From: a virus
Virus record (IMG/VR): IMGVR_UViG_3300008262_000142
Location: 1-48,674 of that record
Reading direction: 5' to 3' (one strand)
Length of the DNA stretch: 48,674 nt
Part shown: piece after piece, positions 6,968 to 35,287 of the stretch
How positions within the stretch are numbered: the stretch's first letter is position 1
How the letters are laid out: every line of letters begins with the position of its first letter
The notes under the pieces: model-generated
What the model saw: only the letters and a program-made list of their open reading frames with translations
Database searches by the model: none
What the model was told of the DNA's origin: nothing
Made by a program: the position numbers and the translations under genes

Positions 6968-7032
6968 AGTATAGCAGACCCGACTGACATTATATGCAAC
7001 ACGCCCAAAATTCCAGGGTGATTTATATCACG
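6968..7032 (-). promoter_or_regulatory. early-type promoter with CRP-like site
   Basis: TGTCAG (6984-6989), 10 bp, TATACT (6968-6973). A weaker CRP-like palindrome GGTGA-N6-TCACG lies at 7017-7032, centred about 64 bp upstream of the predicted start near 6961; AAAATTCCAGGG adjoins it. Confidence 0.65.
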
Positions 7033-7052
7033 TCCTTAACGACACGCCCGAC

Positions 7053-7070
7053 CCCGCAGCTATGTGCGGG
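7053..7070 (-). terminator. GC-rich hairpin between operons
   Basis: CCCGCA and TGCGGG form a perfect 6-bp stem with a 6-base loop, 9 bp downstream of the minus-strand gene 7079-7210. On the minus strand no T tract follows. Equivalent hairpins occur in the other inter-operon gaps. Confidence 0.5.
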
Positions 7071-7078
7071 CTTTTGTG

Positions 7079-7210
7079 TCAAGTGTCAAATTTATTTTTA
7101 TGTTTGATCTTGCGTGTGTATTTTTTTTTATTACGAACAGGTTGCGCCGCATTACTGCGGCGCAATTCCTGAATTCGTTTTACTTTATCTCGAAGTGAAT
7201 TTTGGAACAT
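7079..7210 (-). CDS. very basic miniprotein, 43 aa
   Basis: The frame (MFQNSLRDKVKRIQEL...) has about 17 Lys/Arg residues, mostly in the C-terminal half (KKKYTRKIKHK), and GAGTGG before its ATG. It follows the 68-aa gene by 22 bp on the same strand. A nucleic-acid-binding role is plausible from charge alone. A perfect 9-bp inverted repeat (7142-7165) lies within it, encoding RRSNAAQ. Confidence 0.5.
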   Translation of the reverse strand: MFQNSLRDKVKRIQELRRSNAAQPVRNKKKYTRKIKHKNKFDT

Positions 7211-7232
7211 TGTATCCACTCGCTTCGTGAAA

Positions 7233-7439
7233 TCATTTTACTACGACCTTTCGTCCTGCACGATAAAAAACTTTTGTGTGACATTTGCCTGCTGGCGTGT
7301 AGAGATTAACAGTTGAGTATTCATCTGCAAAACCCCAATCGGTAAATAAGAAAAAGTTTTCCCATGCCCCGTATTCGTTTTCGTATTCAGCAGACCAATG
7401 CGGAGCATTTCCGTCATAAGCGCAAGTTATTTTATACAT
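7233..7439 (-). CDS. hypothetical protein, 68 aa
   Basis: Begins MYKITCAYDGNAPHWSAEYE and is rich in aromatic residues (ENFFLFTDWGF), suggesting a small beta-rich fold. The start overlaps the TAA of the upstream miniprotein as TAATG; a longer frame to 7481 lies inside that gene and is rejected. No family recognised. Confidence 0.65.
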   Translation of the reverse strand: MYKITCAYDGNAPHWSAEYENEYGAWENFFLFTDWGFADEYSTVNLYTPAGKCHTKVFYRAGRKVVVK

Positions 7440-7564
7440 TAGTTGTTCTCCAATTCTTCCACGCAATCGCATGGCTCGCAATCATAGTCATTATCATTAC
7501 CAAAAAAGATTATTCCGTATCCGTTACAATCTATACAATCTATTTTCATTACTGAGTTAATCAT
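7439..7564 (-). CDS. zinc-ribbon-like miniprotein, 41 aa
   Basis: Contains CIDCNGYG and CEPCDC, resembling half of a DnaJ-type CxxCxGxG zinc site. The start at 7564 is preceded by CAACGAAAGG, and its stop couples to the next gene by TAATG. Function unknown; a metal-bound adaptor or inhibitor peptide is possible. Confidence 0.65.
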   Translation of the reverse strand: MINSVMKIDCIDCNGYGIIFFGNDNDYDCEPCDCVEELENN

Positions 7565-7592
7565 AGTTTTCCTTTCGTTGTTGTTATTGCTT

Positions 7593-7614
7593 ATTATAGC
7601 CTAAGCCACTGACA
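7593..7614 (-). promoter_or_regulatory. early-type promoter without CRP-like site
   Basis: TGTCAG (7609-7614), 10 bp, TATAAT (7593-7598). It begins one base after the stop codon of the upstream gene, leaving no intergenic room for the palindrome. Confidence 0.7.
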
Positions 7615-7615
7615 T

Positions 7616-7759
7616 TTATTCGGCTTCGGGGCTAGTGAATAAGGCTCCCTCATTAAGTAGCCCTACCTCAATGTTAAAGAGTTCATCAGGGGTGGCTTCG
7701 GATAAATCTACCCAGCCTGCCCCGTCTTGATCAATTCTAAAAATTTCAATGTATCCCAT
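7616..7759 (-). CDS. hypothetical acidic protein, 47 aa
   Basis: MGYIEIFRIDQDGAGWVDLS and a short acidic C-terminus. It is coupled by TAATG to the upstream Cys-rich miniprotein. The composition suggests a soluble two-strand, one-helix fold. No family recognised. Confidence 0.6.
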   Translation of the reverse strand: MGYIEIFRIDQDGAGWVDLSEATPDELFNIEVGLLNEGALFTSPEAE

Positions 7760-7923
7760 TAGTGTTGTTCCTCGCAATTCTTTGAGTAATCAAATCCGCA
7801 AAAGTAGCAACCCATAAATTCTAGGTGTTCCTCGCAGTAATACTTAAATTGGCTCTCATCACAGCAAAAATGTTGCTCGTCCGAGATTTCATAAAAATCG
7901 GTTTTGTCGATTATGTTTAACAT
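7759..7923 (-). CDS. Cys-rich miniprotein, 54 aa
   Basis: Preceded by AAACGAAAGG and its own promoter (7953-7974). It contains HFCC, a lone Cys before EEH, GCYFCG and a final Cys, seven Cys or so with several His, so one or two zinc sites are likely. It is coupled to the next gene by TAATG. Confidence 0.65.
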   Translation of the reverse strand: MLNIIDKTDFYEISDEQHFCCDESQFKYYCEEHLEFMGCYFCGFDYSKNCEEQH

Positions 7924-7952
7924 CAGTTTCCCTTTCGTTTGTTTATTTAGTT

Positions 7953-7974
7953 ATTGTATCAGGTAGCACCGACA
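7953..7974 (-). promoter_or_regulatory. early-type promoter without CRP-like site
   Basis: TGTCGG (7969-7974), 10 bp, TACAAT (7953-7958), immediately after the stop of the upstream gene at 7977. Confidence 0.65.
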
Positions 7975-7976
7975 AA

Positions 7977-8189
7977 TTAGTCAGATGTTTTGACCGCTAA
8001 ATAGCGGTATGTATCTTTAAGATTTAGCGGGGCTGAATAATGAGGTCGCACCTGCACTTTGTAGGTATCTGCATTTGCATACCAGACATCATTATTTTTT
8101 TCTGCTGAGATAATTTCACCCTTTAATGATTTTGAGTGATAGGTCTTTCCTACAAGTAGGCTTTCGATAGTATAAACATTTGCGGACAT
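7977..8189 (-). CDS. hypothetical protein, 70 aa
   Basis: The protein begins MSANVYTIESLLVGKTYHS and appears beta-rich (GEIISAEK, VWYANA, YKVQVRPH), similar in feel to small SH3-like phage proteins that carry a 'V/LGKTY' start. The start at 8189 is fixed by AACGAAAGAAGG; the longer frame to 8306 runs through the promoter. Single-gene transcript. Confidence 0.65.
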   Translation of the reverse strand: MSANVYTIESLLVGKTYHSKSLKGEIISAEKNNDVWYANADTYKVQVRPHYSAPLNLKDTYRYLAVKTSD

Positions 8190-8221
8190 TAGTTGCCTTC
8201 TTTCGTTGTTGTTATAAGAGT

Positions 8222-8307
8222 ATTGTACCAGAACGCACCGACATAATCTAATTACTAGCCAGTAATTCCAAATAATGAGACGCTCAACCAATGTGATAAA
8301 TCTCACA
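8222..8307 (-). promoter_or_regulatory. early-type promoter with perfect CRP-like site
   Basis: TGTCGG (8238-8243), 10 bp, TACAAT (8222-8227). Perfect TGTGA-N6-TCACA at 8292-8307, centred about 84 bp upstream of the predicted start near 8215, followed by AAATTTCAGGGG. Confidence 0.75.
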
Positions 8308-8351
8308 AATTTCAGGGGATTTTATAACGACTTCATAACGACACGCCCGAC

Positions 8352-8369
8352 CCCGTGCATATGTGCGGG
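8352..8369 (-). terminator. GC-rich hairpin between operons
   Basis: CCCGTGCA and TGTGCGGG can pair over up to 8 positions with two wobbles. It lies about 35 bp after the stop of minus-strand gene 8404-8502 and is flanked by ACGACACGCC-type repeats. No T tract. Confidence 0.4.
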
Positions 8370-8403
8370 ACGCATCGCCTTTGTCAAGACGACGCGCCGC
8401 TAT

Positions 8404-8502
8404 CTATTGATAATCTTTTAGAATTTCCTCTAATTGATTTATTTGCTCATCGCTAAGATGATCTAATTGAATTGCTTTTTCAAATCCGAATAAATCGCTC
8501 AT
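8404..8502 (-). CDS. acidic helical miniprotein, 32 aa
   Basis: MSDLFGFEKAIQLDHLSDEQ followed by a helix to the end. The ATG overlaps the TGA of the upstream gene (ATGA). It is the last gene of the operon that begins at 9318. Short, but the overlap and acidic amphipathic helix support it. Confidence 0.5.
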   Translation of the reverse strand: MSDLFGFEKAIQLDHLSDEQINQLEEILKDYQ

Positions 8503-8693
8503 TCGTTTTCCATTTCTGCCAAATAATCTTCATGCTCTGCTAAACCAATTGCAAATGCTATTGGGTCACAACATTCTAAAATTTCGGCGGGGGTAAAAGT
8601 AGAGTATCCAATTTTTACATTAGGATAAACATCATTAAGTAAATCTATAAAGCTTTCTTTTGTTTCTATGTCTTTTTCTAATTGTGATTTCAT
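8499..8693 (-). CDS. hypothetical acidic protein, 64 aa
   Basis: Mostly helical, with YPNVKIGYSTFTPAEILECC in the middle. It couples to both neighbours by TAATG and ATGA overlaps. No family recognised; the CC pair is not a typical zinc site. Confidence 0.65.
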   Translation of the reverse strand: MKSQLEKDIETKESFIDLLNDVYPNVKIGYSTFTPAEILECCDPIAFAIGLAEHEDYLAEMENE

Positions 8694-8824
8694 TATTTAG
8701 CCTCCTCTAAGAATAAAGCGTACATTGGTGAACATGTTAAGCAAATTGGATACTCAAAACGGAAATCGAAAAAATCATCTTCCATGTTTACTGAGCATTC
8801 CTCGCAATAAGTTAAATCTTTCAT
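8693..8824 (-). CDS. zinc-ribbon-like miniprotein, 43 aa
   Basis: Two CxxC pairs (CEEC near residue 7 and CLTC near residue 28) with an acidic aromatic loop between them form a clear minimal zinc ribbon. GGAGG-like GAGGC precedes the ATG. Its TAA overlaps the next start as TAATG. Confidence 0.65.
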   Translation of the reverse strand: MKDLTYCEECSVNMEDDFFDFRFEYPICLTCSPMYALFLEEAK

Positions 8825-8826
8825 TG

Positions 8827-8964
8827 TTAAGCCTCCAATTGCTTATAGTCGATTACATGAAAGTCTAATTGTCTCTCAAGTGGCATAGCCTTTAGCCATG
8901 AGTAGGCAGACTCAAAATCATCTGCCTCTACATCTACAAATAACTCAAAATTAAAAATAGCCAT
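8827..8964 (-). CDS. hypothetical protein, 45 aa
   Basis: MAIFNFELFVDVEADDFESA suggests a ferredoxin-like strand-helix-strand fold. The start at 8964 is preferred over 9015 because GAGGAG lies ten bases upstream of it. It overlaps nothing but sits 1 to 2 bp from both neighbours in the operon. Confidence 0.6.
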   Translation of the reverse strand: MAIFNFELFVDVEADDFESAYSWLKAMPLERQLDFHVIDYKQLEA

Positions 8965-8965
8965 G

Positions 8966-9145
8966 TTACCAACACTCCTCACATGTAAATTTGGTAAAGT
9001 CTGCATCTTTTGCAAATACCTCTAAGTAATTATTCGCACAAATTGTGCATGATAGCAAATAAGTTTTTGCCTTTTGATACATGTATGGATTAGAGTTAGA
9101 TAACTCTCTATTCTCCAATACCTCTGATGAAATTAAAATGCTCAT
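8966..9145 (-). CDS. zinc-ribbon-like protein, 59 aa
   Basis: Contains CTIC and, 20 residues later, CEEC at the C-terminus, a typical treble-clef or zinc-ribbon spacing. The start overlaps the TGA of the upstream gene (ATGA). Function unknown. Confidence 0.6.
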   Translation of the reverse strand: MSILISSEVLENRELSNSNPYMYQKAKTYLLSCTICANNYLEVFAKDADFTKFTCEECW

Positions 9146-9318
9146 TTAGTCACATACCAATCTGTCCACATAGGTAAACGCTCTGGGTCATGGTCGCCAT
9201 AGTAGCGAGAGATGTTTTGTTCACAATCTTGGCAGAAAGTAAATTGCTCATCTCCAATTTCTGAGATAGCGGATTTCATAGGGTTATGCTCTACGCATAG
9301 TGTTGTGAGTGAGTTCAT
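9142..9318 (-). CDS. Cys/His miniprotein, 58 aa
   Basis: Contains CVEH and CQDC about 20 residues apart, a probable C-x2-H/C-x2-C zinc site, then an acidic aromatic tail (MWTDWYVTK). First gene of the operon, with AACGAAAGGGG before the ATG and the promoter at 9349-9370. Confidence 0.65.
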   Translation of the reverse strand: MNSLTTLCVEHNPMKSAISEIGDEQFTFCQDCEQNISRYYGDHDPERLPMWTDWYVTK

Positions 9319-9348
9319 GTGAACCCCTTTCGTTGTTGTTATAGTGGA

Positions 9349-9435
9349 ATTGTAGCATGACGGGCAGACATTTCTCTACCTACTAGCGAGTAAGTCCAAG
9401 ATGTGAGACGCTCAGCCTATGTGATACTAGTCACA
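9349..9435 (-). promoter_or_regulatory. early-type promoter with perfect CRP-like site
   Basis: TGTCTG (9365-9370), 10 bp, TACAAT (9349-9354). Perfect TGTGA-N6-TCACA at 9420-9435, centred about 85 bp upstream of the predicted start near 9342. This drives the six-gene zinc-miniprotein operon. Confidence 0.75.
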
Positions 9436-9518
9436 CGCAAATGTCCGATTTGTCCGTCAAATCGACACGCCGTAAAATTTTAGGGGATTTTATAACATGT
9501 TCATAACGACACGCCCGA

Positions 9519-9535
9519 CCCCGTGCTTTTGCGGG
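9519..9535 (-). terminator. GC-rich hairpins between operons
   Basis: CCCCGTGCTTTTGCGGG forms a short stem. Beside it GCTTGA...TCAAGC (about 9540-9556) makes a second stem, matching the paired hairpins of the other gaps. They follow the stop of the minus-strand gene 9571-9699. Confidence 0.4.
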
Positions 9536-9570
9536 CCAGCTTGATCTTGTCAAGCCGACACGCCGTTAGG

Positions 9571-9699
9571 CTAATGTGATTCTTGCCACAATTCACGCAT
9601 CTCCGCTATGAAGTCATGATAAACGATCCTCGCCATGTAGAGGGCGGGGATAGCGATAGATAGTTGCACTAGTGTAGTTAGTAGGCGATTAGTAGTCAT
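9571..9699 (-). CDS. membrane miniprotein, 42 aa
   Basis: MTTNRLLTTLVQLSIAIPAL continues as one hydrophobic helix, then a charged cytoplasmic-type tail (ARIVYHDFIAEMRELW). Coupled by TAATG to the upstream membrane miniprotein, so the two may act together. Function unknown. Confidence 0.6.
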   Translation of the reverse strand: MTTNRLLTTLVQLSIAIPALYMARIVYHDFIAEMRELWQESH

Positions 9700-9836
9700 T
9701 ACTTTACTCTCATTCTCTTATAAACCTTATACGCAATTAGCGCAATAGTAGCGGGGATAATTACTTGCCAAGATAAGGCGATATAGCAGACATAGGTATC
9801 AAACTCTAAGCCGTAGTCATTTAGTTCTAATGTCAT
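9699..9836 (-). CDS. membrane miniprotein, 45 aa
   Basis: An acidic N-terminus is followed by one membrane helix (ALSWQVIIPATIALIAY) and a basic tail (KVYKRMRVK), giving an outside-N, inside-C prediction by charge. TAATG overlaps on both sides couple it into a chain of small genes. Confidence 0.6.
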   Translation of the reverse strand: MTLELNDYGLEFDTYVCYIALSWQVIIPATIALIAYKVYKRMRVK

Positions 9837-9988
9837 TACTTTACCTCTACTCCTCTTACATTGTAGGTAAATCCTTTACCTAGTTTATTTAGTTCGGTCA
9901 TTACATTTAGTAATTCATCTGCGCTATTAGCCTTGTTATCTACTGATGACGATAAGCATCTGCGACATCTGATTGGATAGTATCCCAT
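9836..9988 (-). CDS. hypothetical protein, 50 aa (possible second half of a frameshifted gene)
   Basis: The frame starts MGYYPIRCRRCLSSS, with one CxxC, and ends with a coupled TAATG. No ribosome site precedes its ATG, and its first 49 bases overlap the 29-aa frame 9940-10029 in a different phase. A -1 shift near 9945-9950 would join the two into one protein of about 66 aa. It is either an overlapping gene or the 3' part of a broken or frameshifted one. Confidence 0.45.
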   Translation of the reverse strand: MGYYPIRCRRCLSSSVDNKANSADELLNVMTELNKLGKGFTYNVRGVEVK

Positions 9989-10029
9989 TTAGATACGCTA
10001 TTAGTTTGGTATGAGTATGCGTATGACAT
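9940..10029 (-). CDS. short peptide, 29 aa (possible first half of a frameshifted gene)
   Basis: AAGGAGG lies 8 bases before this ATG and the start overlaps the upstream TAA as TAATG, so initiation here is strongly supported. The frame (MSYAYSYQTNSVSKWD...) stops after 29 codons inside the overlapping 50-aa frame. See the neighbouring entry for the frameshift alternative. Confidence 0.5.
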   Translation of the reverse strand: MSYAYSYQTNSVSKWDTIQSDVADAYRHQ

Positions 10030-10121
10030 TACTTAGCCTCCTTAGTTAGTAGGGCTAGGGCTTGTGCAAGGCTTTCCTTGCGTTGCGCTTCTACAAGCGC
10101 CTTGTATTCGTCTAGTGTCAT
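10029..10121 (-). CDS. helical miniprotein, 30 aa
   Basis: MTLDEYKALVEAQRKESLAQ and on to the end is a single amphipathic helix. Preceded by AACGAAAGG and the promoter at 10155-10176; its 3' end carries the AAGGAGG for the next gene and a TAATG overlap. Possibly a leader-type coupling gene. Confidence 0.55.
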   Translation of the reverse strand: MTLDEYKALVEAQRKESLAQALALLTKEAK

Positions 10122-10154
10122 TTATTCTGACCTTTCGTTGTTGTTATAGTAGGA

Positions 10155-10220
10155 ATTATAGCGGATAGGGCTGACATTATCAACACGACACGCCTAGGCG
10201 TGTGTGTGACATGAGACACA
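10155..10220 (-). promoter_or_regulatory. early-type promoter with imperfect CRP-like site
   Basis: TGTCAG (10171-10176), 10 bp, TATAAT (10155-10160). A CRP-like TGTGA-N6-ACACA lies at 10205-10220, about 64 bp upstream of the predicted start, overlapping the end of the upstream gene. The perfect 16-bp palindrome ACACGCCTAGGCGTGT (10188-10203) adjoins it. Confidence 0.65.
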
Positions 10221-10352
10221 ATGAGCAGGGAGTCTAAAGAGATACTTTAGGAGAGCCTTACGCTCAGAGGTAGTCAATTCAGGGTGGTTAGATTTAACGC
10301 CACCATGTTGGTATTCATAGACGATTGCGTCTAGTGTTTTTTGAGTGAGCAT
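10194..10352 (-). CDS. Cys/His miniprotein, 52 aa
   Basis: Begins MLTQKTLDAIVYEYQHGG and ends HCVSCHTHA, a compact Cys/His cluster that could bind a metal. GAAAGGAG lies 8 bases before the ATG. It is the rightmost gene of the minus-strand early block and a single-gene transcript. Confidence 0.6.
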   Translation of the reverse strand: MLTQKTLDAIVYEYQHGGVKSNHPELTTSERKALLKYLFRLPAHCVSCHTHA

Positions 10353-10383
10353 TTAATTGCTCCTTTCTTTTTGTTATACCTTA

Positions 10384-10459
10384 AGCATAGCAGGGGGGAC
10401 TGACATTTATGCCCGTTTCTCGGGCGTGTCGTCAAAAAACTTTTGTGAGGTCCATCACA
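10384..10459 (-). promoter_or_regulatory. early-type promoter with perfect CRP-like site
   Basis: TGTCAG (10400-10405), 10 bp, TATGCT (10384-10389). TGTGA-N6-TCACA at 10444-10459, about 74 bp upstream of the predicted start near 10377. This is the outermost promoter of the left block; the remaining 140 bp to the divergent plus-strand promoter are AT-rich with no gene seen. Confidence 0.7.
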
Positions 10460-10574
10460 TTCACGCTTAAGCCCATAATTGTATGTGCGGACTATAGAGA
10501 CAAAACGGACATTTCAAATTCGTGTATCATACAAATTAAAAAAATATTAACATTTTATAGAATCTGAAATAGTA

Positions 10575-10597
10575 GTTGACTAGAATTATGCTATACT
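10575..10597 (+). promoter_or_regulatory. plus-strand leaderless promoter
   Basis: TTGACT (10576-10581) is followed by 10 bp and TATACT (10592-10597), the same unusual spacing as the minus-strand modules. The ATG at 10604 is 6 bases after the -10 box, so transcription is expected to start at the A of ATG. Confidence 0.6.
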
Positions 10598-10603
10598 GAT
10601 AAC

Positions 10604-10717
10604 ATGAAATGCAACTTCTGTGATAGACCAAAATACGTTGAGAGATTAAACTCAAAAGGCGTACTAGAAAACTTTTGCGTTATTTGCATCAATAAGCTAA
10701 TAAAGGGCGGGAAATGA
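10604..10717 (+). CDS. zinc-ribbon-like miniprotein, 37 aa
   Basis: Two CxxC pairs (CNFC at residue 3 and CVIC near residue 25) around a basic loop (DRPKYVERLNSKG) give a minimal zinc ribbon. It is apparently translated from a leaderless message. Its TGA overlaps the next ATG as ATGA. Confidence 0.65.
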   Translation: MKCNFCDRPKYVERLNSKGVLENFCVICINKLIKGGK

Positions 10718-10794
10718 AAACTCTTCTTTGGGTAGGTATTATATCGATCCTAGTATGTATATGCGGAATACTTCTGCAAGTCTATACAAACTAG
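10714..10794 (+). CDS. membrane miniprotein, 26 aa
   Basis: MKTLLWVGIISILVCICGIL and a short tail: one membrane helix and little else. GGGCGGG-AA precedes the ATG and the start overlaps the upstream stop. Its last base is the first base of the tRNA-Ile acceptor stem. Confidence 0.5.
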   Translation: MKTLLWVGIISILVCICGILLQVYTN

Positions 10795-10866
10795 GGGATA
10801 TAGCTTAATGGTGAAAGCACTTGTCTTATATACAATAGAGTCTGGGTTCAAATCCCAGTATCCCTA
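10794..10866 (+). tRNA. tRNA-Ile (anticodon TAT)
   Basis: Cloverleaf: acceptor GGGGATA with TATCCCT (first pair G-T), D stem GCTT/AAGC, anticodon stem CTTGT/ACAAT (outer pair mismatched) around CTTATAT (anticodon TAT), T arm CTGGG-TTCAAAT-CCCAG. CCA is not encoded. It reads ATA, which is frequent in the phage's AT-rich genes and typically rare in actinobacterial hosts. Confidence 0.85.
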
Positions 10867-10887
10867 CAATATCAAAATTACGCATGG

Positions 10888-10893
10888 TATAAT
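10888..10893 (+). promoter_or_regulatory. -10 box before the first oxygenase gene
   Basis: A perfect TATAAT preceded by CATGG, 34 bp before the ATG at 10927, with AAGGAG in the leader. No convincing -35 box is seen. Confidence 0.5.
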
Positions 10894-10926
10894 TATTTTA
10901 TAAATGACTTATTTAAGGAGAAATAA

Positions 10927-11847
10927 ATGCAATTAGAACCAATCTTGTTAGGCAAAGACATTTTGCTGTTTAAAAATGTTTTAAATAACCCAAAAGCAGT
11001 TTATGATTTTGTTTTAAAAACAAAAACTGAAAAAGACTTAAACTTTGGCGAGTGGAGCAAGTGGGGCAATATTGGTAGTTATTCAAAAGCATATCCACAA
11101 AATTCAGATGAATGGAAAGGGCTTTCAGATCAAAGCTCTAATATAGTTAAAGAGTGCATAGATATATTTTTTCAGGCTCTAAAGATATACAAGGACTCTT
11201 ACATGAACGAAGAGTACTTTAATATGCATCAATATCCTTTAAACTTTCCAACATCATATGAAGACTTATCCCTAAATAATCCAGAGAACTACTCTATGTC
11301 TGATCTTCCAATATTTGAGATTCCTACTACACAAGCTGGTAAGAACAAGTCCATGGATATACACCTTGATCGATCATTCTGGTACCAGGGTGGATCTAGA
11401 CATATATTTAATTTTAATATTTATATCAACGATGATTATGAGGGCGGAGAAATATTTTTTATTGATGTTGAAAATTCAGAAAAAAAGATTTACGTTGATC
11501 CAAACGGAAACCATATTGAATATTTGTTAGCAGATGAACCACTTACATATAGAATGGAAGCTGGAGATGCTATGTTATTTAGAACAGATGTTTATCATGG
11601 GGTTAAGCCAACTATTGGAAACAAATTTTATTTTAGACAATTTTTAGATGCACCAGAAACAGTAGAAATTCAAAATATAACTGCGGGAATGAATAGCGAA
11701 GAATTAGAACAGTTTAGAAAAAATTCTGAAACAGAAGGCAAATCAAAAATGTTTACTCCAGTGCTATTTGATTCCTTAGAAGATATTGATGTAAATTCCT
11801 ATAAAGATTGGCCAGGAATAAAAATGCCAATTCTTATAAGAAAGTAA
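10927..11847 (+). CDS. 2-oxoglutarate/Fe(II)-dependent oxygenase (prolyl-hydroxylase type), 306 aa
   Basis: The double-stranded beta-helix core carries the metal triad H146-x-D148 (HLDRSFW) and H224 (VYHGVKP), with K233/R237 placed to bind 2-oxoglutarate. The stretch YINDDYEGGEIFF is the signature shared by all eight oxygenases of this window and by the P4H-like 2OG-FeII_Oxy_3 family. The N-terminal 130 residues (FKNVLNNPKAVYDFVL, EWSKWGNIGSY) resemble those of the 33715 and 35288 genes. AAGGAG precedes the ATG by six bases. The substrate is unknown; a hydroxylase acting on a phage or host protein or a small molecule is possible. Confidence 0.88.
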   Translation: MQLEPILLGKDILLFKNVLNNPKAVYDFVLKTKTEKDLNFGEWSKWGNIGSYSKAYPQNSDEWKGLSDQSSNIVKECIDIFFQALKIYKDSYMNEEYFNMHQYPLNFPTSYEDLSLNNPENYSMSDLPIFEIPTTQAGKNKSMDIHLDRSFWYQGGSRHIFNFNIYINDDYEGGEIFFIDVENSEKKIYVDPNGNHIEYLLADEPLTYRMEAGDAMLFRTDVYHGVKPTIGNKFYFRQFLDAPETVEIQNITAGMNSEELEQFRKNSETEGKSKMFTPVLFDSLEDIDVNSYKDWPGIKMPILIRK

Positions 11848-11874
11848 TCATTTTATATTAAAGGAGAAACTAAA

Positions 11875-12561
11875 ATTAATATTATAGATTTTGGTAACGG
11901 AATTAAGGGATATGAAAATTTTGTAACTGATGAGGAACTTGCTATAATTCAAGCTGCTTGCAGGGATGAAAATTTTTGGAAAGGCCCTAAAGGAAGAATA
12001 AATAATAATGAAGTTTGGGATGGTAATATAATAGATCTATCTTTTGAGCAACATGGAGAACTTCAAACGATTGTTCAAAATTTAAACTATAGACTTTTAG
12101 AAACAGTATGCGATGAAACTGTCAGACCATCCTTGGGACCTGGTAACATAATGAGGTTCAGGTCTTCTGATGCTGATAGATTAAAGCTAAATGTAGCTAT
12201 GCAGCTGCATCACGATAAGTTTAATCCTTGGTCTGTTTTAGGCGTAGTTATATATTTTAATGACGATTTTGAAGACGGAGAGATTGAGTATGTTGATCTA
12301 AATATAAAAATAAAGCCTAGGGCTGGAATGATGTTATGTCATCCAGCAGAACTAATACATTTTGTTAATAGAGTTACCAATGGAGATAGATACTTCACAA
12401 CAAACTATATAATGGAGCATTTTTACTGGGATAAGAGAAAGCAGCTTCCAGAAAAAGAATATAAGGCTATAATGCATAAGCATAGAACCCAAGACTATCC
12501 TCCAGTAGACGATGTTGCATTCAATGCAAATTTCAAAAAATCTAATGCTAGAATATTGTAG
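11875..12561 (+). CDS. 2-oxoglutarate/Fe(II)-dependent oxygenase, probable ATT start, 228 aa
   Basis: The frame is open from the stop of the previous gene and has no ATG, GTG or TTG before the TTG at 12133, yet the translation upstream is clearly protein (IIDFGNGIKGYENFVTDEE, a typical oxygenase N-terminus). AAGGAG at 11861-11866 is 8 bases before an ATT at 11875, the best start. The core has H112-x-D114, YFNDDFEDGEIEY, H162 and R172 (ten residues after the distal His, as in P4H enzymes). Starting at 12133 would remove a third of the protein but not the metal triad. The ATG may have mutated to ATT, or ATT is used as in infC. Confidence 0.75.
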   Translation: MNIIDFGNGIKGYENFVTDEELAIIQAACRDENFWKGPKGRINNNEVWDGNIIDLSFEQHGELQTIVQNLNYRLLETVCDETVRPSLGPGNIMRFRSSDADRLKLNVAMQLHHDKFNPWSVLGVVIYFNDDFEDGEIEYVDLNIKIKPRAGMMLCHPAELIHFVNRVTNGDRYFTTNYIMEHFYWDKRKQLPEKEYKAIMHKHRTQDYPPVDDVAFNANFKKSNARIL

Positions 12562-12576
12562 TTGACTAGGATATAT

Positions 12577-12714
12577 ATGAGAAAAAAATATTATTCTGCA
12601 GTATTGATTATATCTGCAATACTAGCTCCAGTATTTATATTTTTATACGAAGTTAAAAAAATGGGCGGGATTCGAGATATCTTTGATGTCGATGACGAAA
12701 ATGAGTCTATATAA
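12577..12714 (+). CDS. single-span membrane miniprotein, 45 aa
   Basis: MRKKYYSAVLIISAILAPVF continues as one membrane helix, followed by an acidic tail (DIFDVDDENESI). AGGA lies 5 bases before the ATG. The positive N-terminus predicts the acidic tail outside. The leader contains the repeat GTTGACTAGGAT also seen before 10604. Function unknown. Confidence 0.6.
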   Translation: MRKKYYSAVLIISAILAPVFIFLYEVKKMGGIRDIFDVDDENESI

Positions 12715-12958
12715 ACACTACCTTGATATATATACGTCCTATTGATAATACTTGGGACAATAAAGGATATCGTCGTAAAGGGACTTTTTGGCCCTCTCCC
12801 GCCCTTGGGTAGGCAAATAGCCTAGTAAAGGCTTAGAGAGCCTATAGAGGCTTTATAAGGGGTATTTCTATGTAAATGGATCGCATATGGATCTATATAT
12901 CCCAGTTGACTAGAATATGGTTCTTCTCGCCGACGCACTTTTTCGCACTATATGGCGA
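12715..12958. other. intergenic region between convergent genes
   Basis: No convincing gene. It holds two small hairpins in tandem (GCCTAGTAAAGGC and AGCCTATAGAGGCTTT, about 12813-12853), possibly terminating plus-strand transcription, a short AGGG...CCCT stem near 12780, and a third copy of GTTGACTAGAAT at 12905-12916 with no gene obviously following it. Confidence 0.5.
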
Positions 12959-13807
12959 TTAATGTTCTTTAAATTCTCCCATGAATTTGCTTGATAGCTC
13001 TGGTCCTTCTAATCCAGAAGCCTGATACTTTTTAATTAGCTCTGGAGTAAACTGTGGATTCTGCTTAAGCGGTGTCATCCAAACTCTTTGAAAATGTTCA
13101 AAGTCTCCATCATAAGCTTCTTTTATTTGTGCATTATATTCTGGGCTTTTGTAATTATAAAAAGTTCCTGGGTTATCTTCTGCCTTAAGAACAAAATTCG
13201 AAAATGCATAGCGAACTCCTTTAGTAACTTTTTCAACACCATGTGTATGAGGATCAAATGCACCATGTACAATTAAATCTCCTCTTTCTGGCTTAATGGT
13301 TAGTCTATTTTCTTCGCCTACTGCTTCATTTTTATTACCGTCTTTATCTATATTTGTGTAAAATATTTCTCCGCCTTCAAAGTCCCCAAAGTACGCTACT
13401 AGGCCATAATCTAGCTCGCAGCATGTTTTCCATACATCTACCTGAGATAATCTGTGACATTCTCCCTTGCCTGGTGAGTCGGAGTGAGTAAACATTCCTT
13501 GATTCATGTGCTCGCTTATAACAAGTACATTATTTTGAGGGTGTATAACATATTCTGGGTAAAGCATCTCACTTGCCTTTGCCCACAATTTATGTAGCCC
13601 CAAGATTGGTGGACTAAGCTTATCTGCATACCAGCTTATAAGCGTTTCTTCATATTTTTGGTCGTACTTATAGTCTCTTAATGCGTCCTCTACAATTTTG
13701 CACTCTTCGTCAGTATAAAACCCTTTAAAAACAAAAACCCCACTTGGTGTCCCGTAATTATCTGGGAAAAAAGAAACCTTTGTGCAATCTTCTCTGTCGT
13801 AAAACAT
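12959..13807 (-). CDS. 2-oxoglutarate/Fe(II)-dependent oxygenase, 282 aa
   Basis: Metal triad H108-x-D110 (FTHSDSPG) and H189 (PHTHGVEK) with R199 ten residues later for 2-oxoglutarate. The shared signature appears as AYFGDFEGGEIFY, with Gly-Asp in place of Asn-Asp-Asp. The C-terminal 60 residues form a tail of unknown role. It is the only oxygenase of the eight on the minus strand and is coupled by TAATG to the small gene upstream of it. The substrate is not known. Confidence 0.87.
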   Translation of the reverse strand: MFYDREDCTKVSFFPDNYGTPSGVFVFKGFYTDEECKIVEDALRDYKYDQKYEETLISWYADKLSPPILGLHKLWAKASEMLYPEYVIHPQNNVLVISEHMNQGMFTHSDSPGKGECHRLSQVDVWKTCCELDYGLVAYFGDFEGGEIFYTNIDKDGNKNEAVGEENRLTIKPERGDLIVHGAFDPHTHGVEKVTKGVRYAFSNFVLKAEDNPGTFYNYKSPEYNAQIKEAYDGDFEHFQRVWMTPLKQNPQFTPELIKKYQASGLEGPELSSKFMGEFKEH

Positions 13808-13941
13808 TATCTTTTACCAACCTTCTCAAGTAGTTTTTTAAAAATTGATTTTTTCTTTTTGTGAGCTTCGGCTTTACATGAGCTATCACAGTTGTGATTA
13901 AATTGTGGACTTGCCATCCACTTTGCAAAATGATGTGCCAT
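13807..13941 (-). CDS. basic Cys/His miniprotein, 44 aa
   Basis: MAHHFAKWMASPQFNHNCDS then SCKAEAHKKKKSIFKKLLEK: a CDSSC pair with flanking His, then a very basic helix. A TATAAT (13951-13956) ends 9 bases before this ATG, so the message has almost no leader. A longer frame to 14010 passes through a strong hairpin and the promoter and is rejected. Coupled to the oxygenase gene downstream. Confidence 0.55.
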   Translation of the reverse strand: MAHHFAKWMASPQFNHNCDSSCKAEAHKKKKSIFKKLLEKVGKR

Positions 13942-13962
13942 AGTAATTATATTATAGCATGC

Positions 13963-13994
13963 GTAAGCCCCTGGAGGCGGATCCAGGGGCTTAC
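13963..13994. terminator. 12-bp perfect hairpin
   Basis: GTAAGCCCCTGG and CCAGGGGCTTAC pair perfectly around an 8-base loop. It lies downstream of the minus-strand operon 14733-14074 and directly upstream of the -10 box for 13941, so it insulates the two. No T tract follows on either strand. Confidence 0.7.
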
Positions 13995-14073
13995 TTGCAT
14001 TTTCATGCATACGCCAGGATTAACTCAACCAGCGTAAATCTATATTACAATTATTGTTTTTAAAAAGCAATAC

Positions 14074-19909: not shown

Positions 19910-20365
19910 ATGTCTAGACAGATGCTGGTACCTTTAAGGCTATTAGCCTTGTCAACAGACCCAGCATTTGGGCAAGTTGGAGAAGTATACATAAATACTA
20001 CTACAAAAAACTTGCGTGTTCACAATGGAACTACTTGGATAGAGCTTACTCCTCCAAGTACAGATCCAACTCCATTCTATATGCACACTCACACATTTGA
20101 TGGAGATGTACACACAATAGATATACAGAATCAAATTGACTTTAAGAATCTTGATAATCCGAATACCCCTGGACTTGTTTTACCTGAGATAATTGGATAT
20201 GACGGAGGATTGCCTGGTAGCAATCTTAATAGCCCGTCGTTTGTTGAAGAAACATTATTTGACGCTGGCCTTTTTGACGGAACACAAGAAGTACAAGAAG
20301 AAGTTTTGGGAGGCGGAGGCTCAGAAGATTTTGATGCACCATCACTTGACGGAGGAAATTCATAA
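19910..20365 (+). CDS. fibre-associated acidic protein, 151 aa
   Basis: The N-terminus (GQVGEVYINTTTKNLRVHNG) is a short fibre-type domain; the C-terminal half is acidic and Gly-rich (LGGGGSEDFDAP), probably disordered. It may be an adaptor or a connecting protein in the tail tip. TAATG couples it to the next fibre gene. Confidence 0.65.
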   Translation: MSRQMLVPLRLLALSTDPAFGQVGEVYINTTTKNLRVHNGTTWIELTPPSTDPTPFYMHTHTFDGDVHTIDIQNQIDFKNLDNPNTPGLVLPEIIGYDGGLPGSNLNSPSFVEETLFDAGLFDGTQEVQEEVLGGGGSEDFDAPSLDGGNS

Positions 20366-21945
20366 TGGCATATAAAATTCAATTAAGAAGAGACGTTGCA
20401 GCAAACTGGGCAGCAAATAACCCATTGCTTTTAAATGGTGAAATAGGAATAGAAACAGACACCCTTAAGTTTAAAATAGGTAATGGAACTCAAAGATGGA
20501 ATTCAATAACTTCTTATGCCCTTAAGCCTGGAATTGCTAACGGAGTTGCTACTTTAAATTCGGATGGCAAAATTCCTTTATCTCAATTGCCAGATCAGGT
20601 TTCATTAGATTCTGAAGCCCTACTTGCGATACAAAACGCTTTGTCTTCTATTACAACAAACGACATTGCAGAATCAGTAAATTTATATTTTACAGAACCT
20701 AGAGCAGTAAATGCAGTGCAAGGGTTATTTGACCCAATAGGATCTGCAGATGATGCACTAGATGAGGCAAAACAAGATGCCACAACAAAAGTAAATGCAG
20801 CTCAACTAGCTGCAGCAATAGATGCAACAGACAAAGTTGCTGCCGCACTCGTAACCGCTAAAGCAGACGCTGAAGAATTTACAGTAGCATCAATAAATGC
20901 TTTAAGCACATCTGATATAGAAGAGGGAACAAGACTTTATTTTACAGAAGCAAGAGTTGACAGTATAGTTGATCCACTTATTTTACAAACTAGAGGATAT
21001 GTAGATCAGGAAGTTGCTGGAGCTAAAACATATACAGATGCAGCTTTAGAAGGCTTTATTCCACCAATAACCAATATAGGATCTACTTCAGATGTTCCAG
21101 AAGGATCTAATTTATATTTTACAAATGCAAGAGCAATTTCAGCAACAAATAACGCAAGAACAGCAGTCCTTGTTTCTGCACTAACAGCAGTTGATGATTT
21201 AAGAACAGAAATCAACACAAGTCTAACTAATTATATTCCATTATCAGATAGAAATTCTTCTGGAGGAATTGCTGGACTAGATTCAAATAGTCAAATATTA
21301 GAATCTGCTATCCCCTCAACAATAGCAAGATCATCAGAAATAGTATCTGCAATTGAAGGAGTTATAGACTCTGCTCCAACAGCATTTAATACTCTTAAAG
21401 AAATTGCTGATTATATAGCTGCAGATCAATCTGCAGCTTCTGCAATAACAGCATCTATAGAAACAAAATTAAATATAACTTCAGCAGCATCAACATATGC
21501 TCCAATTTCCTCACCCACATTTACTGGAGTAGTCACAATACCAACAGGTGCACTAATATCTGGATATGCTACAACCATTAATTTGACATCTGGATTAGCT
21601 TCTACTTTGACAGACGCTAATGACTATACAGACTTAGCAATAGCTGGAATTGAAAACTCGCTTGGAGGATATCAGCCAGAATCTGAAAGAAACCAAAATA
21701 GCGGATATGCTGGACTAGATTCAAACGGAAAAATTTTAACTTCTGCAGTTCCAACAATTTCTAATTCAATGATTGAAAATAATTCAATCAATATAAATGG
21801 AACAGCCGTAGCCCTTGGCGGAACAGTTATTACTGGATATACAAATGGAGTTTCTGGTTCTAATGTAAATAAGATTACATATGGAACTGGCTTGACACCA
21901 CCCTCAAGCGGAAATTCTGCTGGAGACATTTACATTCAATACTAA
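20365..21945 (+). CDS. tail fibre with Mtd-like N-terminal domain, 526 aa
   Basis: The N-terminus (YKIQLRRDVAANWAANNPLL, GEIGIETDTLKFKIGNG) matches the major-tropism-determinant N-terminal type domain that anchors fibres to the virion. Three copies of a LYFTxxRA motif (LYFTEPRAVNA, LYFTEARVDS, LYFTNARAISA) separate helical, Ala-rich segments that should form a trimeric shaft. The C-terminus ends YGTGLTPPSSGNSAGDIYIQY. Role: receptor-binding or shaft protein. Confidence 0.82.
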   Translation: MAYKIQLRRDVAANWAANNPLLLNGEIGIETDTLKFKIGNGTQRWNSITSYALKPGIANGVATLNSDGKIPLSQLPDQVSLDSEALLAIQNALSSITTNDIAESVNLYFTEPRAVNAVQGLFDPIGSADDALDEAKQDATTKVNAAQLAAAIDATDKVAAALVTAKADAEEFTVASINALSTSDIEEGTRLYFTEARVDSIVDPLILQTRGYVDQEVAGAKTYTDAALEGFIPPITNIGSTSDVPEGSNLYFTNARAISATNNARTAVLVSALTAVDDLRTEINTSLTNYIPLSDRNSSGGIAGLDSNSQILESAIPSTIARSSEIVSAIEGVIDSAPTAFNTLKEIADYIAADQSAASAITASIETKLNITSAASTYAPISSPTFTGVVTIPTGALISGYATTINLTSGLASTLTDANDYTDLAIAGIENSLGGYQPESERNQNSGYAGLDSNGKILTSAVPTISNSMIENNSININGTAVALGGTVITGYTNGVSGSNVNKITYGTGLTPPSSGNSAGDIYIQY

Positions 21946-27729: not shown

Positions 27730-30700
27730 ATGTCAACAGTAAGAATTCAAGTACGTAGAGGTTTATCTTCAGAATGGACCGCAGCTAATCCAGTATTAGC
27801 TGCAGGTGAAATGGGTGTTGAAACAAACACTAATAAATTTAAATTCGGTAATGGTTCATCTACATGGACCGCTCTTTCATATGCAGCAGCCGACACAGCA
27901 GCAATTGGTGAAATTTCCCAAGATGCTATAGATCAGGCTCTTTCAATGGGTGCTGGATTAACAAAGACTTATAATGATGGTACAAACACAATAACAATAA
28001 CTGTTGATACAGATGTTATTTCTACAAAAGCGTTTGCAACATCAGAAGCAGCTGCAGCAAAAACAGCAGCAGAAGCAACTGCATCAGCAGATGCAACTTC
28101 AAAGGCCAACGCAGCACTAGCAGCGGCAGAGGATTATACAGATAACGCAATAAGTGGAGTTAATAACTCTTTGGGAGATTATATTCCAGTTTCAGACAGA
28201 GGAGCTCAAAATGGAGTTGCCTCACTTGACACAAATACTAAAATTCCAGTAGCACAAATTGCATTAAATAATTTTAATGGGGTTATCAGTACAAGTGAAA
28301 ATATATTCGGAAACACAATAACAGGAACGAACCTTGTTTCAGAAAATTTGCTAACAGCAAATGATGTAAATATTAGCGGCAATTTAACTGTTAGCGGAAC
28401 TTCAACTACAGTTAACTCAACAAATGTTTCGTATGATGACCCAATGATTTACATTGGTGATGGCAACCAATCCAACGTCCTTGACATTGGTGTTGTGGGA
28501 GCATTCAATAATGGAACATATCAGCATGCTGGTCTTGTACGTGATGCTTCTGACGGAATTTGGAAGCTTTTCTCAGGAGTTACATCAGAGCCTACAACTG
28601 TAGTAGACTTTACTACATACACAAGATCACCTCTTGAAGTTGGTCAAATATATGCTACTGCAGCTCAGATAGGAGCAGTTGGACCACAACAGATTCAGAT
28701 GCTTTCTGATGTTACTGGAAACATTCAAGAGCAACTAGATGCAAAGCTTAATGAGGTTCCAGATAATTCTGTTACAACAGCTAAAATAACAGATGATGCC
28801 GTAACATCAGCTAAAATTGCAGAATCTTCAGTTACTTCAGTCAAGATTGCAAATGATGCAGTTACTTCAGTCAAGATTGCAAATGATGCAGTTATTGAAA
28901 GTAAAATCGCAAATGATGCAGTTAGCGAAGATAAAATATTTGCAGGTTCTGTAACTACTGACAAAATTAGAGCAGCTTCAGTTACTGAAGTTAAAATTGC
29001 AAATGATGCAGTTACTGGAATTAAGATTGCAAATGACGCAGTTAGCGAAGATAAAATATTTGCAGGTTCTGTAACTACTGACAAAATTGCAAATAATTCA
29101 GTTACTGATATTAAAATTGCAGATGATGCCGTAACAGTTAACAAAATTGCGGATTCGGCTATTACAAATGCAAAGATCTCAGCTACAGCAGAAATTGCTC
29201 AATCAAAGATTGCTGGATTAACTCAAGCATTAGACTTAAAAGCAACAATTGATTCACCAAATTTAACTGGATCAGTTGTTCTTCCTTCTACAACAACAAT
29301 TGGATCAGTTGATGCAACTGAAATTGGCTACCTAAATGGAGTTACATCTTCAATTCAAACTCAGTTCGAATCAGCTGCAACAGCTCTTACAAACCACTCA
29401 TCAGATACAACTGATGTACATGGAATTGCAGATACATCACTTCTAGCTACAAAGTCATATGCAGATGGAGCAGTATCAACACACAATGACGATACAACAA
29501 ATGTCCACGGCATTGCAGACACATCACTTCTAGTAACAACAACTGGAACACAAACACTAACAAATAAGACTCTAACAAGCCCAACAATTAATGGAGCTAC
29601 AGTTGGCGGAAACATAGTCCCATCTGTAGATAATACATATGACCTAGGTTCTCCTACTCAAATGTGGAAAGATATCTATGTTGGTCCAGGATCACTTTAT
29701 GTTAATGGACAGAAAGTTCTTCAAGATGAATCAGGAGCAATTGTTGTTTCTGCAGACATTAATGAGAACCTTGGTTTAAGAACAAGCGGAAGTGGTAATA
29801 TCGAGTTTGATCCAACAGGAACAGGCGTAGTTAATGTTAAGGGCCCTCTTGTTATGGAATCAGGCGCAAATATTTCAAGTGCTGATGGAAATGGAATCAA
29901 CTTCTCTAATACAGTAAAGGTTGACTCAATTGCCAGCAAGACAGCAGATACAGACTTATCATTATCAGGAAACGGCACAGGAAAAGTTTATCTTAATGAT
30001 AATGCAGAAGTAAATGGAAACCTTGTTGTTGGTGGAAACCTAACAGTAAGCGGAACAACTACAACTGTTAACAGCGAAACAATTAGTTTGGCTGACAATA
30101 TCATTGATTTAAACAGTAATTTTACTACTGGAACTCCAACAGAAAACGCTGGACTAAGAATTATGCGTGGAGATTCTAATGCGGTTCAAATGCGTTGGAA
30201 TGAGTCTACAGATGTATGGGAGTTCACAAATGATGGAACAACATACTCTTCAGTACTATCAATAAACGATACAGCATTAACAACAGCACTAAACGCAAAG
30301 CTAGCATCTGCTACAGCAGCAACAACCTACGCACCAATTGCTAATCCAACATTTACTGGTACAGTAACAGTTGCAGCATCTGGTGTAGCATTTACAGACG
30401 GAGCACAGACAAAAGCTGGAGTTCCTTCTCTAACAACAATTGGAACAGCAATTGGAGCAGCATACAACCTTTCAACAGGTGGTTTAGGTCTACGGGATCA
30501 ATTAATTCCAGTTTCTGGAGCACACACAATTACAGTTCCAGCAAATGCAACTACAGCTTATCCAGTAGGAACTTCAATAAGCTTCTACCAGTCAGCAGGA
30601 ACAGACGCAGCATTTGCAGAAGCAGCAGGAGTTACAATTTTAAGAACTCCAGGATTAAAGCTTAGAGCACTTCATTCATCAGCAACAATAACCAAGGTCG

Positions 30701-30741
30701 CAACAGACACCTGGTTACTTGCTGGAGACTTGAAAGCATAA
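27730..30741 (+). CDS. large tail fibre with Mtd-like N-terminus, 1003 aa
   Basis: The N-terminus (STVRIQVRRGLSSEWTAANP, GEMGVETNTNKFKFGNG) is the Mtd-type anchor. It is followed by a helical part, a fibre module NISGNLTVSGTSTTVNSTNV (about 215) that recurs as NLVVGGNLTVSGTTTTVNSE near 770, and then ten-residue repeats of the type SVTSVKIAND (about 347-485). Residues 560-620 carry two copies of a HSSDTTDVHGIADTSLL segment. The C-terminus is a beta domain. This is the longest fibre of the window and likely the main receptor-binding protein. Confidence 0.82.
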   Translation: MSTVRIQVRRGLSSEWTAANPVLAAGEMGVETNTNKFKFGNGSSTWTALSYAAADTAAIGEISQDAIDQALSMGAGLTKTYNDGTNTITITVDTDVISTKAFATSEAAAAKTAAEATASADATSKANAALAAAEDYTDNAISGVNNSLGDYIPVSDRGAQNGVASLDTNTKIPVAQIALNNFNGVISTSENIFGNTITGTNLVSENLLTANDVNISGNLTVSGTSTTVNSTNVSYDDPMIYIGDGNQSNVLDIGVVGAFNNGTYQHAGLVRDASDGIWKLFSGVTSEPTTVVDFTTYTRSPLEVGQIYATAAQIGAVGPQQIQMLSDVTGNIQEQLDAKLNEVPDNSVTTAKITDDAVTSAKIAESSVTSVKIANDAVTSVKIANDAVIESKIANDAVSEDKIFAGSVTTDKIRAASVTEVKIANDAVTGIKIANDAVSEDKIFAGSVTTDKIANNSVTDIKIADDAVTVNKIADSAITNAKISATAEIAQSKIAGLTQALDLKATIDSPNLTGSVVLPSTTTIGSVDATEIGYLNGVTSSIQTQFESAATALTNHSSDTTDVHGIADTSLLATKSYADGAVSTHNDDTTNVHGIADTSLLVTTTGTQTLTNKTLTSPTINGATVGGNIVPSVDNTYDLGSPTQMWKDIYVGPGSLYVNGQKVLQDESGAIVVSADINENLGLRTSGSGNIEFDPTGTGVVNVKGPLVMESGANISSADGNGINFSNTVKVDSIASKTADTDLSLSGNGTGKVYLNDNAEVNGNLVVGGNLTVSGTTTTVNSETISLADNIIDLNSNFTTGTPTENAGLRIMRGDSNAVQMRWNESTDVWEFTNDGTTYSSVLSINDTALTTALNAKLASATAATTYAPIANPTFTGTVTVAASGVAFTDGAQTKAGVPSLTTIGTAIGAAYNLSTGGLGLRDQLIPVSGAHTITVPANATTAYPVGTSISFYQSAGTDAAFAEAAGVTILRTPGLKLRALHSSATITKVATDTWLLAGDLKA
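28771..29178 (+). repeat. about fourteen 30-bp repeats encoding a decapeptide
   Basis: Units such as GTTACTTCAGTCAAGATTGC plus AAATGATGCA; 28831-28860 and 28861-28890 are identical, and 48 bases at 28921 recur exactly at 29041. The peptide pattern is xxVTxxKIAN(D/N). Confidence 0.88.
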
Positions 30742-31607: not shown

Positions 31608-32321
31608 ATGACAAATTTTAATAACAATTATTTATTTTCTTCAAAAGAGCAGCTTGCTCCTGGTATTTGGGTTTATCGAGATGTAATTAAAAAAGAAATC
31701 AATGTGATTGATAGATTAAATAAAATTGGAGAATCTGCTATTAGAGATGGAGACTCCAGGTACGAATGGACTTTTGGCTTTGTAGGTTATAGCGAAAAGA
31801 GACCTTCATACAGGGATTGTGAAGATATTAAAGTTGGTGAAGTTGTAAATATTAATTCTGAAACAGAAAATTTAGTCAATGATCTATGGCGGGATTTAAA
31901 AAATCATCAGTCTCCAGCAGTGGATGATTATTGTGGAATGTATAATGTAAAAATGAACTATTGGGAAGTTATGAATTGTATCCGCTATGGCAAGGGTCAG
32001 CATTTCCAAGAGCATGCAGATCATGGATTTTCATACAGCGCTACAGTTTCTTTGGTAGCATATGTCAATGATGATTATGAAGGAGGAAACCTTTATTTCC
32101 CTAAATTAAATTTAGACATTAAGCCAAAGGCGGGAGACCTATACATATTCCCATCTACATATTTATTTTCACATAGAGCAATGCCAGTTGAATCTGGAAT
32201 GAAGTTTTCAATTGTTACTATGCTAGATTATAATGATCATGCACACAGACCAGAGTTTATGCAAATGAGAGCAAAATGGGTTGAAGAAGATTCAAAAACT
32301 GGTAAAAATTCTCATGTATAG
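31608..32321 (+). CDS. 2-oxoglutarate/Fe(II)-dependent oxygenase, 237 aa
   Basis: First gene of a five-oxygenase operon. Metal triad H136-x-D138 (EHADHG) and H189 (LFSHRAMP); K199, ten residues later, replaces the Arg seen in most of its paralogues and would bind 2-oxoglutarate as Lys does in animal P4H. Signature AYVNDDYEGGNLYF followed by KPKAGDLYIFPS. Leaderless start at 31608. It overlaps the DUF6065-like gene by 8 bases. The substrate is unknown. Confidence 0.88.
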   Translation: MTNFNNNYLFSSKEQLAPGIWVYRDVIKKEINVIDRLNKIGESAIRDGDSRYEWTFGFVGYSEKRPSYRDCEDIKVGEVVNINSETENLVNDLWRDLKNHQSPAVDDYCGMYNVKMNYWEVMNCIRYGKGQHFQEHADHGFSYSATVSLVAYVNDDYEGGNLYFPKLNLDIKPKAGDLYIFPSTYLFSHRAMPVESGMKFSIVTMLDYNDHAHRPEFMQMRAKWVEEDSKTGKNSHV

Positions 32322-34530: not shown

Positions 34531-34533
34531 AAT

Positions 34534-35286: not shown

Positions 35287-35287
35287 C

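Follow-up and report, generated by a model that had tools for sequence, protein, structure and literature searches.

The 48,674-base virus record analysed here (IMG/VR record IMGVR_UViG_3300008262_000142, 38% G+C; the whole stretch is called the window below) encodes a putative 2OG-Fe(II) oxygenase whose translation very likely starts at an AUU codon at position 11875. On this reading the codon is used by initiator tRNA behind a strong Shine-Dalgarno sequence, initiation is probably inefficient and sensitive to IF3, and it is perhaps coupled to the gene upstream. The open frame, established from the sequence and its translation, spans 11848–12561 on the plus strand and begins directly after a TAA at 11845–11847. 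The features of its start region are:

11860..11866, plus strand: Shine-Dalgarno sequence AAAGGAG, with 8 nt between the end of the motif and ATT; identical in four other contigs (L001–L004)
11875..11877, plus strand: proposed start codon ATT (AUU), with no canonical start codon in the 27-nt leader or the first 86 codons
11875..12561, plus strand: 2OG-Fe(II) oxygenase gene, 228 codons plus stop
12133..12135, plus strand: TTG at codon 87, the start given by an ORF caller with a restricted set of start codons; rejected as the start; TTA in L004

The initial annotation had described 86 codons free of ATG, GTG and TTG and an AAGGAG exactly 8 bases before the ATT, and both descriptions are borne out: the first in-frame canonical codon is the TTG at 12133, and the AAGGAG core lies at 11861–11866. 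ORF callers limited to ATG, GTG and TTG yield 142 of the 228 residues, beginning at 12133, and so cut off the N-terminal third, as that annotation had said, together with the part of the fold that precedes codon 87. The whole window was surveyed for stop-to-stop frames of at least 90 codons in which the first canonical start is absent or at least 40 codons in. There are 11 such frames, and the other 10 (2 on the plus strand, 8 on the minus strand) overlap longer ORFs by inspection, which leaves the oxygenase frame as the one clear case in the window.

The motif by itself proves nothing, since AAGGAG-N(5-9)-ATT occurs at chance frequency (4 in the window against 3.64 expected, with 49 of 100 shuffles reaching 4). 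AAGGAG-N(5-9)-ATG occurs 8 times against 2.71 expected, a count reached in 0 of 100 shuffles, and AAAGGAG also stands 8 nt before the ATG of the gene at 18708. The putative start at 11875 is the in-frame near-cognate codon at a normal Shine-Dalgarno distance, and what raises it above chance is that it stands where a conserved coding frame begins and is kept in an orthologue. In favour of this position, the ATG of a homologue (L128:3738, 30% identical) aligns to ATT 11875, gap-free through F16, and PHROG profile phrog_274 aligns its position 8 to residue 9 of the protein. Predicted RNA structure at the start showed nothing beyond shuffled sequences in the window (z 0.48) or in L004 (z −0.02). 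Initiation at another near-cognate codon slightly downstream, ATT 11881 or ATA 11884, is improbable. Both codons are also unchanged in L004, but their Shine-Dalgarno spacings would be 14 and 17 nt, whereas the 16 other starts with a Shine-Dalgarno match of at least 5 nt have spacings of 4–11 nt (among 39 hand-picked starts, with 2–14 nt searched), and a start at either codon would remove part of the strand modelled at residues 2–7.

Orthologues and coding constraint

The gene is present in four other IMG/VR contigs, and the comparison of the codon in related phages that the initial annotation had proposed gives ATT, together with AAAGGAG, in all five contigs, namely the window and L001–L004. 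L001 and L002 equal the window sequence over the whole gene and L003 does so over its 186 codons, where the contig ends inside the gene. These three come from differently numbered metagenomes and carry indels relative to the window elsewhere; they are near-clonal with it and therefore serve mainly as evidence against an assembly error. L004, the sole diverged orthologue found, is 88% identical to the window in DNA over 3.6 kb. In the gene itself, 77 of 687 nucleotides differ and the proteins are 94% identical (dN 0.030, dS 0.690, dN/dS 0.043), and in L004 the ATT and the AAAGGAG are retained, as is the distance of 27 bases to the upstream stop.

The TTA at codon 87 of L004 counters initiation at 12133 only, the finding that the initial annotation said would overturn its reading. 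The first canonical codon in L004 is a GTG at codon 78 that is absent from the window, the first one common to both sequences is ATG at codon 93, and the 27-nt leader contains no canonical start codon in either the window or L004. Over codons 1–86 the two sequences differ with dN 0.045 and dS 0.721 (dN/dS about 0.06), and 26 of the 33 differences fall at third positions; the low ratio indicates that this stretch has been selected as protein in both lineages. Protein-level constraint on codons 1–86, with no canonical codon shared within them, implies some initiation upstream of codon 78 without a canonical codon. Internal stops are absent from the gene across the five contigs (in L003, up to the contig end). 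By this comparison, the gene is one long constrained at the protein level with ATT in place, ATG having been restored in neither lineage.

Conservation was rejected as proof of selection for the ATT itself, which would be an overclaim: of the gene's 5 further ATT codons, 3 are unchanged in L004, and third-position T-to-G differences between the two sequences number 1 among 96 T sites. ATT could persist across this divergence with no selection for it. The surrounding 36 nt (11860–11895) are identical at 35 positions in L004, yet 3 of 675 such stretches are fully identical, so the similarity around the start is no proof.

These data also bear on whether the gene is decaying, its ATG lost before the lineages split and its product now made scarcely or not at all. 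A single substitution separates ATT from ATG, and the homologue L128 has ATG at the aligned position. An ATG-to-ATT difference also separates near-identical phages in another gene (L107, described below), a case showing that an isolated ATT in start position is not necessarily a durable start. Decay is nevertheless very improbable given a dN/dS of 0.043 overall and 0.062 in the N-terminal third, over a dS of 0.69, with no internal stop in five contigs. The initial annotation had offered two options, a genuine ATT start or an ATG lost by one substitution. The former is well supported by the ATT and Shine-Dalgarno sequence kept at dS 0.69, by purifying selection on the N terminus and by a modelled strand right after residue 1. 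A recent loss or a sequencing artefact finds no support, with ATT in 5 of 5 contigs, one of them diverged, and what stands of the second option is that an older loss may have preceded the lineage split.

Readthrough of the upstream TAA (11845–11847), producing a fusion of two oxygenases, is likewise very improbable. Both oxygenases are in one frame, and the 27-nt linker between them lacks a stop and has equal length in L004. However, the linker contains the conserved Shine-Dalgarno sequence, which a readthrough product would not need, and the upstream stop is TAA in both the window and L004. Moreover, changes that alter the residue make up 3 of the 4 codon changes in the linker but 13 of the 70 within the gene (Fisher p 0.03, on small numbers), so the linker is unlike coding sequence and a fusion unlikely. 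An error in sequencing or assembly is almost certainly not the explanation, nor is a start at TTG 12133. The virus record that makes up the window comes from a sequence collection, and the ORF caller begins the gene at 12133; yet all five contigs have ATT, including the one that is 88% identical in DNA, codon 87 reads TTA in L004, and the N-terminal third is under constraint.

Scans of viral sequences with the protein, a two-sequence alignment, a pattern for the start region and two active-site patterns all gave the same four contigs and no further orthologue; three other proteins of the window, used as queries, retrieved 30, 53 and at least 80 loci. With tblastn over 189 loci, the close relatives among the matches listed were the same contigs and the window's own record, and the other rows among the 90 of 127 listed were at most 46% identical, over part of the protein. 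One genome scan returned 12 stretches, none of them related, and phage records contained no match for the oxygenase protein or for the DNA of positions 10000–14000.

The predicted oxygenase and its surroundings

An AlphaFold2 model built with a 26-sequence alignment (pLDDT 80.2, pTM 0.79) has a confidence of 93–96 over residues 1–30 and an opening strand at residues 2–7. A start at codon 87 would delete modelled strands 2–7, 10–14 and 52–54 and helices 19–30, 32–36 and 58–78. Foldseek against the PDB returned 255 matches with E no higher than 0.001, headed by seven bacterial prolyl hydroxylase entries, and for many prolyl hydroxylases of known structure the alignment begins at residue 1 of the model. 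The highest Z given is that of 8k0m_A (Z 15.1, rmsd 2.8, 169 aligned); 3itq_A has Z 14.0, rmsd 3.2 and 157 aligned. The likeness to the prolyl hydroxylases 5iav, 3itq, 4iw3 and 3gze extends over the whole domain (VIA Z 13.8–14.5, Foldseek E 2.6e-6 or better), whereas sequence identity to prolyl hydroxylases of known structure is 12–23%, and the 228-residue protein matches no Pfam family, including PF13640 (2OG-FeII_Oxy_3), at E 0.001 or 0.05. The predicted product is thus a prolyl-hydroxylase-like 2OG-Fe(II) oxygenase fold, a double-stranded beta-helix. The HxD...H triad and a distal Arg are present and aligned with homologues:

12208..12216, plus strand: H112-x-D114, predicted iron ligands; in the alignment of 26 homologues, some lack them
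12358..12360, plus strand: H162, predicted third iron ligand, invariant in the alignment of homologues
12388..12390, plus strand: R172, predicted 2-oxoglutarate-binding Arg, at least 90% conserved in the alignment

We take H112, D114 and H162 to be the iron ligands and R172 the 2-oxoglutarate Arg, as is usual in the family. The best two PHROG matches, phrog_2297 (E 2.8e-07) and phrog_274 (E 2.2e-06, its profile position 8 aligned to residue 9), are labelled DNA endonuclease / DNA endonuclease V, and the third, phrog_81 (7.3e-05), is labelled 2OG-Fe(II) oxygenase. An endonuclease identity was rejected, the labels being judged mis-annotations on the grounds of the fold and the HxD...H residues.

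The ATT-start oxygenase sits in a cargo stretch with two other 2OG-Fe(II) oxygenases, next to a tRNA gene:

10794..10867, plus strand: tRNA-Ile (UAU), found by ARAGORN and by Rfam (tRNA, 74 bits); also in L001–L004
10927..11847, plus strand: upstream 2OG-Fe(II) oxygenase gene (PF13640 7.3e-06, 27.3 bits, above the cut-off)
12959-13807, minus strand: third 2OG-Fe(II) oxygenase, below the Pfam cut-off

The upstream gene starts at an ATG with AAGGAG 6 nt before it; it shares the frame of the ATT-start gene and ends at a TAA 27 nt before the ATT, making it a possible coupling partner. Initiator tRNAs have three G-C pairs in the anticodon stem. The tRNA at 10794 was rejected as a special initiator on its UAU anticodon and on a stem that, by reading, lacks these pairs, and it is judged to be an ordinary tRNA that reads AUA and has no connection with the AUU start.

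The window also encodes a phage portal protein and a ribonucleotide reductase 65% identical to those of Streptomyces phages, which together indicate a tailed phage, probably of actinobacteria. Its origin is presumably freshwater, judging by the type of metagenome in which the related contigs occur. A second cluster, at 31608–35938, holds five 2OG-Fe(II) oxygenase paralogues, each with an ATG start. Between small leftward genes at 7000–10500 lie several direct repeats of 45–61 nt (common blocks include AACGACACGCC and CTTTCGTTGTTGTTATA), possibly repeated control regions. The near-identical contigs differ from the window by indels of 113–158 bases at 1129, 7227–7339, 9231–9388 and 9947, which suggests gain or loss of small cargo pieces, or assembly differences. 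Two long proteins (20365–21945 and 27730–30741) have an N-terminal Mtd_N (major tropism determinant) domain.

Other candidate near-cognate starts

A survey of related phage contigs (191 loci, 1.87 Mb, redundant) listed 54 open frames, one of which (L182) is the ATT-start oxygenase itself. Six were inspected closely (L141, L028, L110, L170, L171 and L107), and the remaining 47 were dropped on reading only, as antisense-like or as leaders before an ordinary start. L141 was rejected on homologues that align only from residue 11, and L028 on a leader that is tRNA-like by reading and is followed by an ATG. L110:4073-4630 (minus strand) is a TylF-like methyltransferase frame with its first canonical start at codon offset 119.

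Three further leads are described here. L171:4680 (IMGVR_UViG_3300042478_002123) is a 151-codon frame for a small CxxCC protein, with 27 codons free of canonical starts and an ATA at a plausible distance after AAAGGA. Among 36 records from cyanophages or marine phages, the 20 listed show homologues that align from the residue next to the ATA; the cyanophage homologues have ordinary TTG starts (S-CAM1 by reading, S-RS29 as annotated) and hence give no support for a conserved near-cognate start in this family. In Synechococcus phage S-CAM1 (L191:295, HQ634177) the annotation of SXBG_00171 seems 58 codons late, the frame having an in-frame TTG at 295 that overlaps the stop of the sliding-clamp gene. 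L170:6426-6428 (minus strand; IMGVR_UViG_3300042987_003181) is a TylF-like methyltransferase with a CTG, overlapping the stop of the upstream frame, where L123, L134, L135 and L136 have ATG. Among the family homologues viewed, only these four have ATG at that position, and L060, L074, L092 and L110 differ N-terminally. L107:2434 (the contig of L024, IMGVR_UViG_3300043568_001841) is a 100-codon frame with ATT where L025, L026, L043 and L045 have ATG; L025 is otherwise identical in the stretch compared, and in L037, L038 and L040 the ATG lies instead three codons upstream. This ATT is found in one contig only, has no clear Shine-Dalgarno sequence and may be a mutation or an error.

None of the L170, L171 and L107 leads has conservation support. 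That near-cognate starts are a recurrent translational throttle in cargo genes of this freshwater phage group (the AUU of the oxygenase and perhaps the AUA of L171, the CUG of L170 and the AUU of L107) is unlikely; if it were true, each throttled accessory protein would be scarce and tied to host IF3 level or growth state.

Proposed initiation at AUU and known near-cognate starts

In the proposed mechanism, AAAGGAG 8 nt upstream would position the 30S subunit, and initiator fMet-tRNA would be accepted on AUU with a single mismatch. The product would be a prolyl-hydroxylase-like 2OG-Fe(II) enzyme of 228 residues that begins with Met. Known AUU genes suggest by analogy that initiation would be inefficient and sensitive to host IF3, and low initiation would make the enzyme scarce relative to the oxygenase encoded directly upstream. 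Ribosomes terminating at the TAA 27 nt upstream may re-initiate at the AUU. We infer the use of AUU, its efficiency, IF3 sensitivity and coupling, and the enzyme activity. By the same analogy, reduced expression from the ATT start is plausible, the start probably gives a low, IF3-sensitive oxygenase level, and the gene is perhaps under IF3 control with coupling to the upstream gene. In the available portion of one study, re-initiation is strengthened by a Shine-Dalgarno sequence, weakened by excess IF3 and lowered by greater intercistronic distance (PMC2268962). The 27 nt to the upstream stop is not a short distance and counts against coupling.

The combination used here, a long canonical-free leader with a Shine-Dalgarno sequence, coding constraint and conservation, forms a comparative test that detects such genes without experiments and could be applied across phage collections. 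The accessible part of the open-access literature yielded no phage with a conserved AUU start, and one may exist in print; if confirmed, the oxygenase gene would be a phage example.

The E. coli gene pcnB reportedly has an AUU start and is translationally limited, going by the title of a 2002 report by Binns and Masters. There too AUU stands on a protein-coding gene, but a bacterial chromosomal one rather than a phage gene. According to the available portion of a second study, IF3 represses non-canonical starts, infC begins with ATT in E. coli and ATC in Streptomyces, and sigR of Streptomyces has an IF3-repressed GTC start (PMC5472188). Like infC, the phage oxygenase appears to be a protein-coding gene whose near-cognate AUN start is kept in relatives; infC, however, is a cellular gene autoregulated via IF3, whereas the phage enzyme has no known IF3 link. 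The likeness to sigR, as far as that portion describes it, lies in a rare start mis-annotated by start-restricted gene callers, and the window phage is akin to Streptomyces phages by its ribonucleotide reductase; unlike the phage gene, sigR starts with GTC, and both its regulatory role and its repression by IF3 are proven. In Staphylococcus aureus, the Shine-Dalgarno sequences of cvfC1 (AUU) and ccpN (AUA) are extended; in the accessible part of the source, reporter expression from these starts in poor medium is about 10% of that from AUG, and ccpN reaches up to 30% in rich medium (PMC13009471). These two genes share with the phage oxygenase a conserved non-canonical start and a strong Shine-Dalgarno sequence, but they are bacterial and, in the same source, proven by ribosome profiling and reporters, whereas the phage case is known from comparative sequence alone. 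AUU starts are thus already known, and the phage enzyme gene with its conserved AUU would add one more case to this group.
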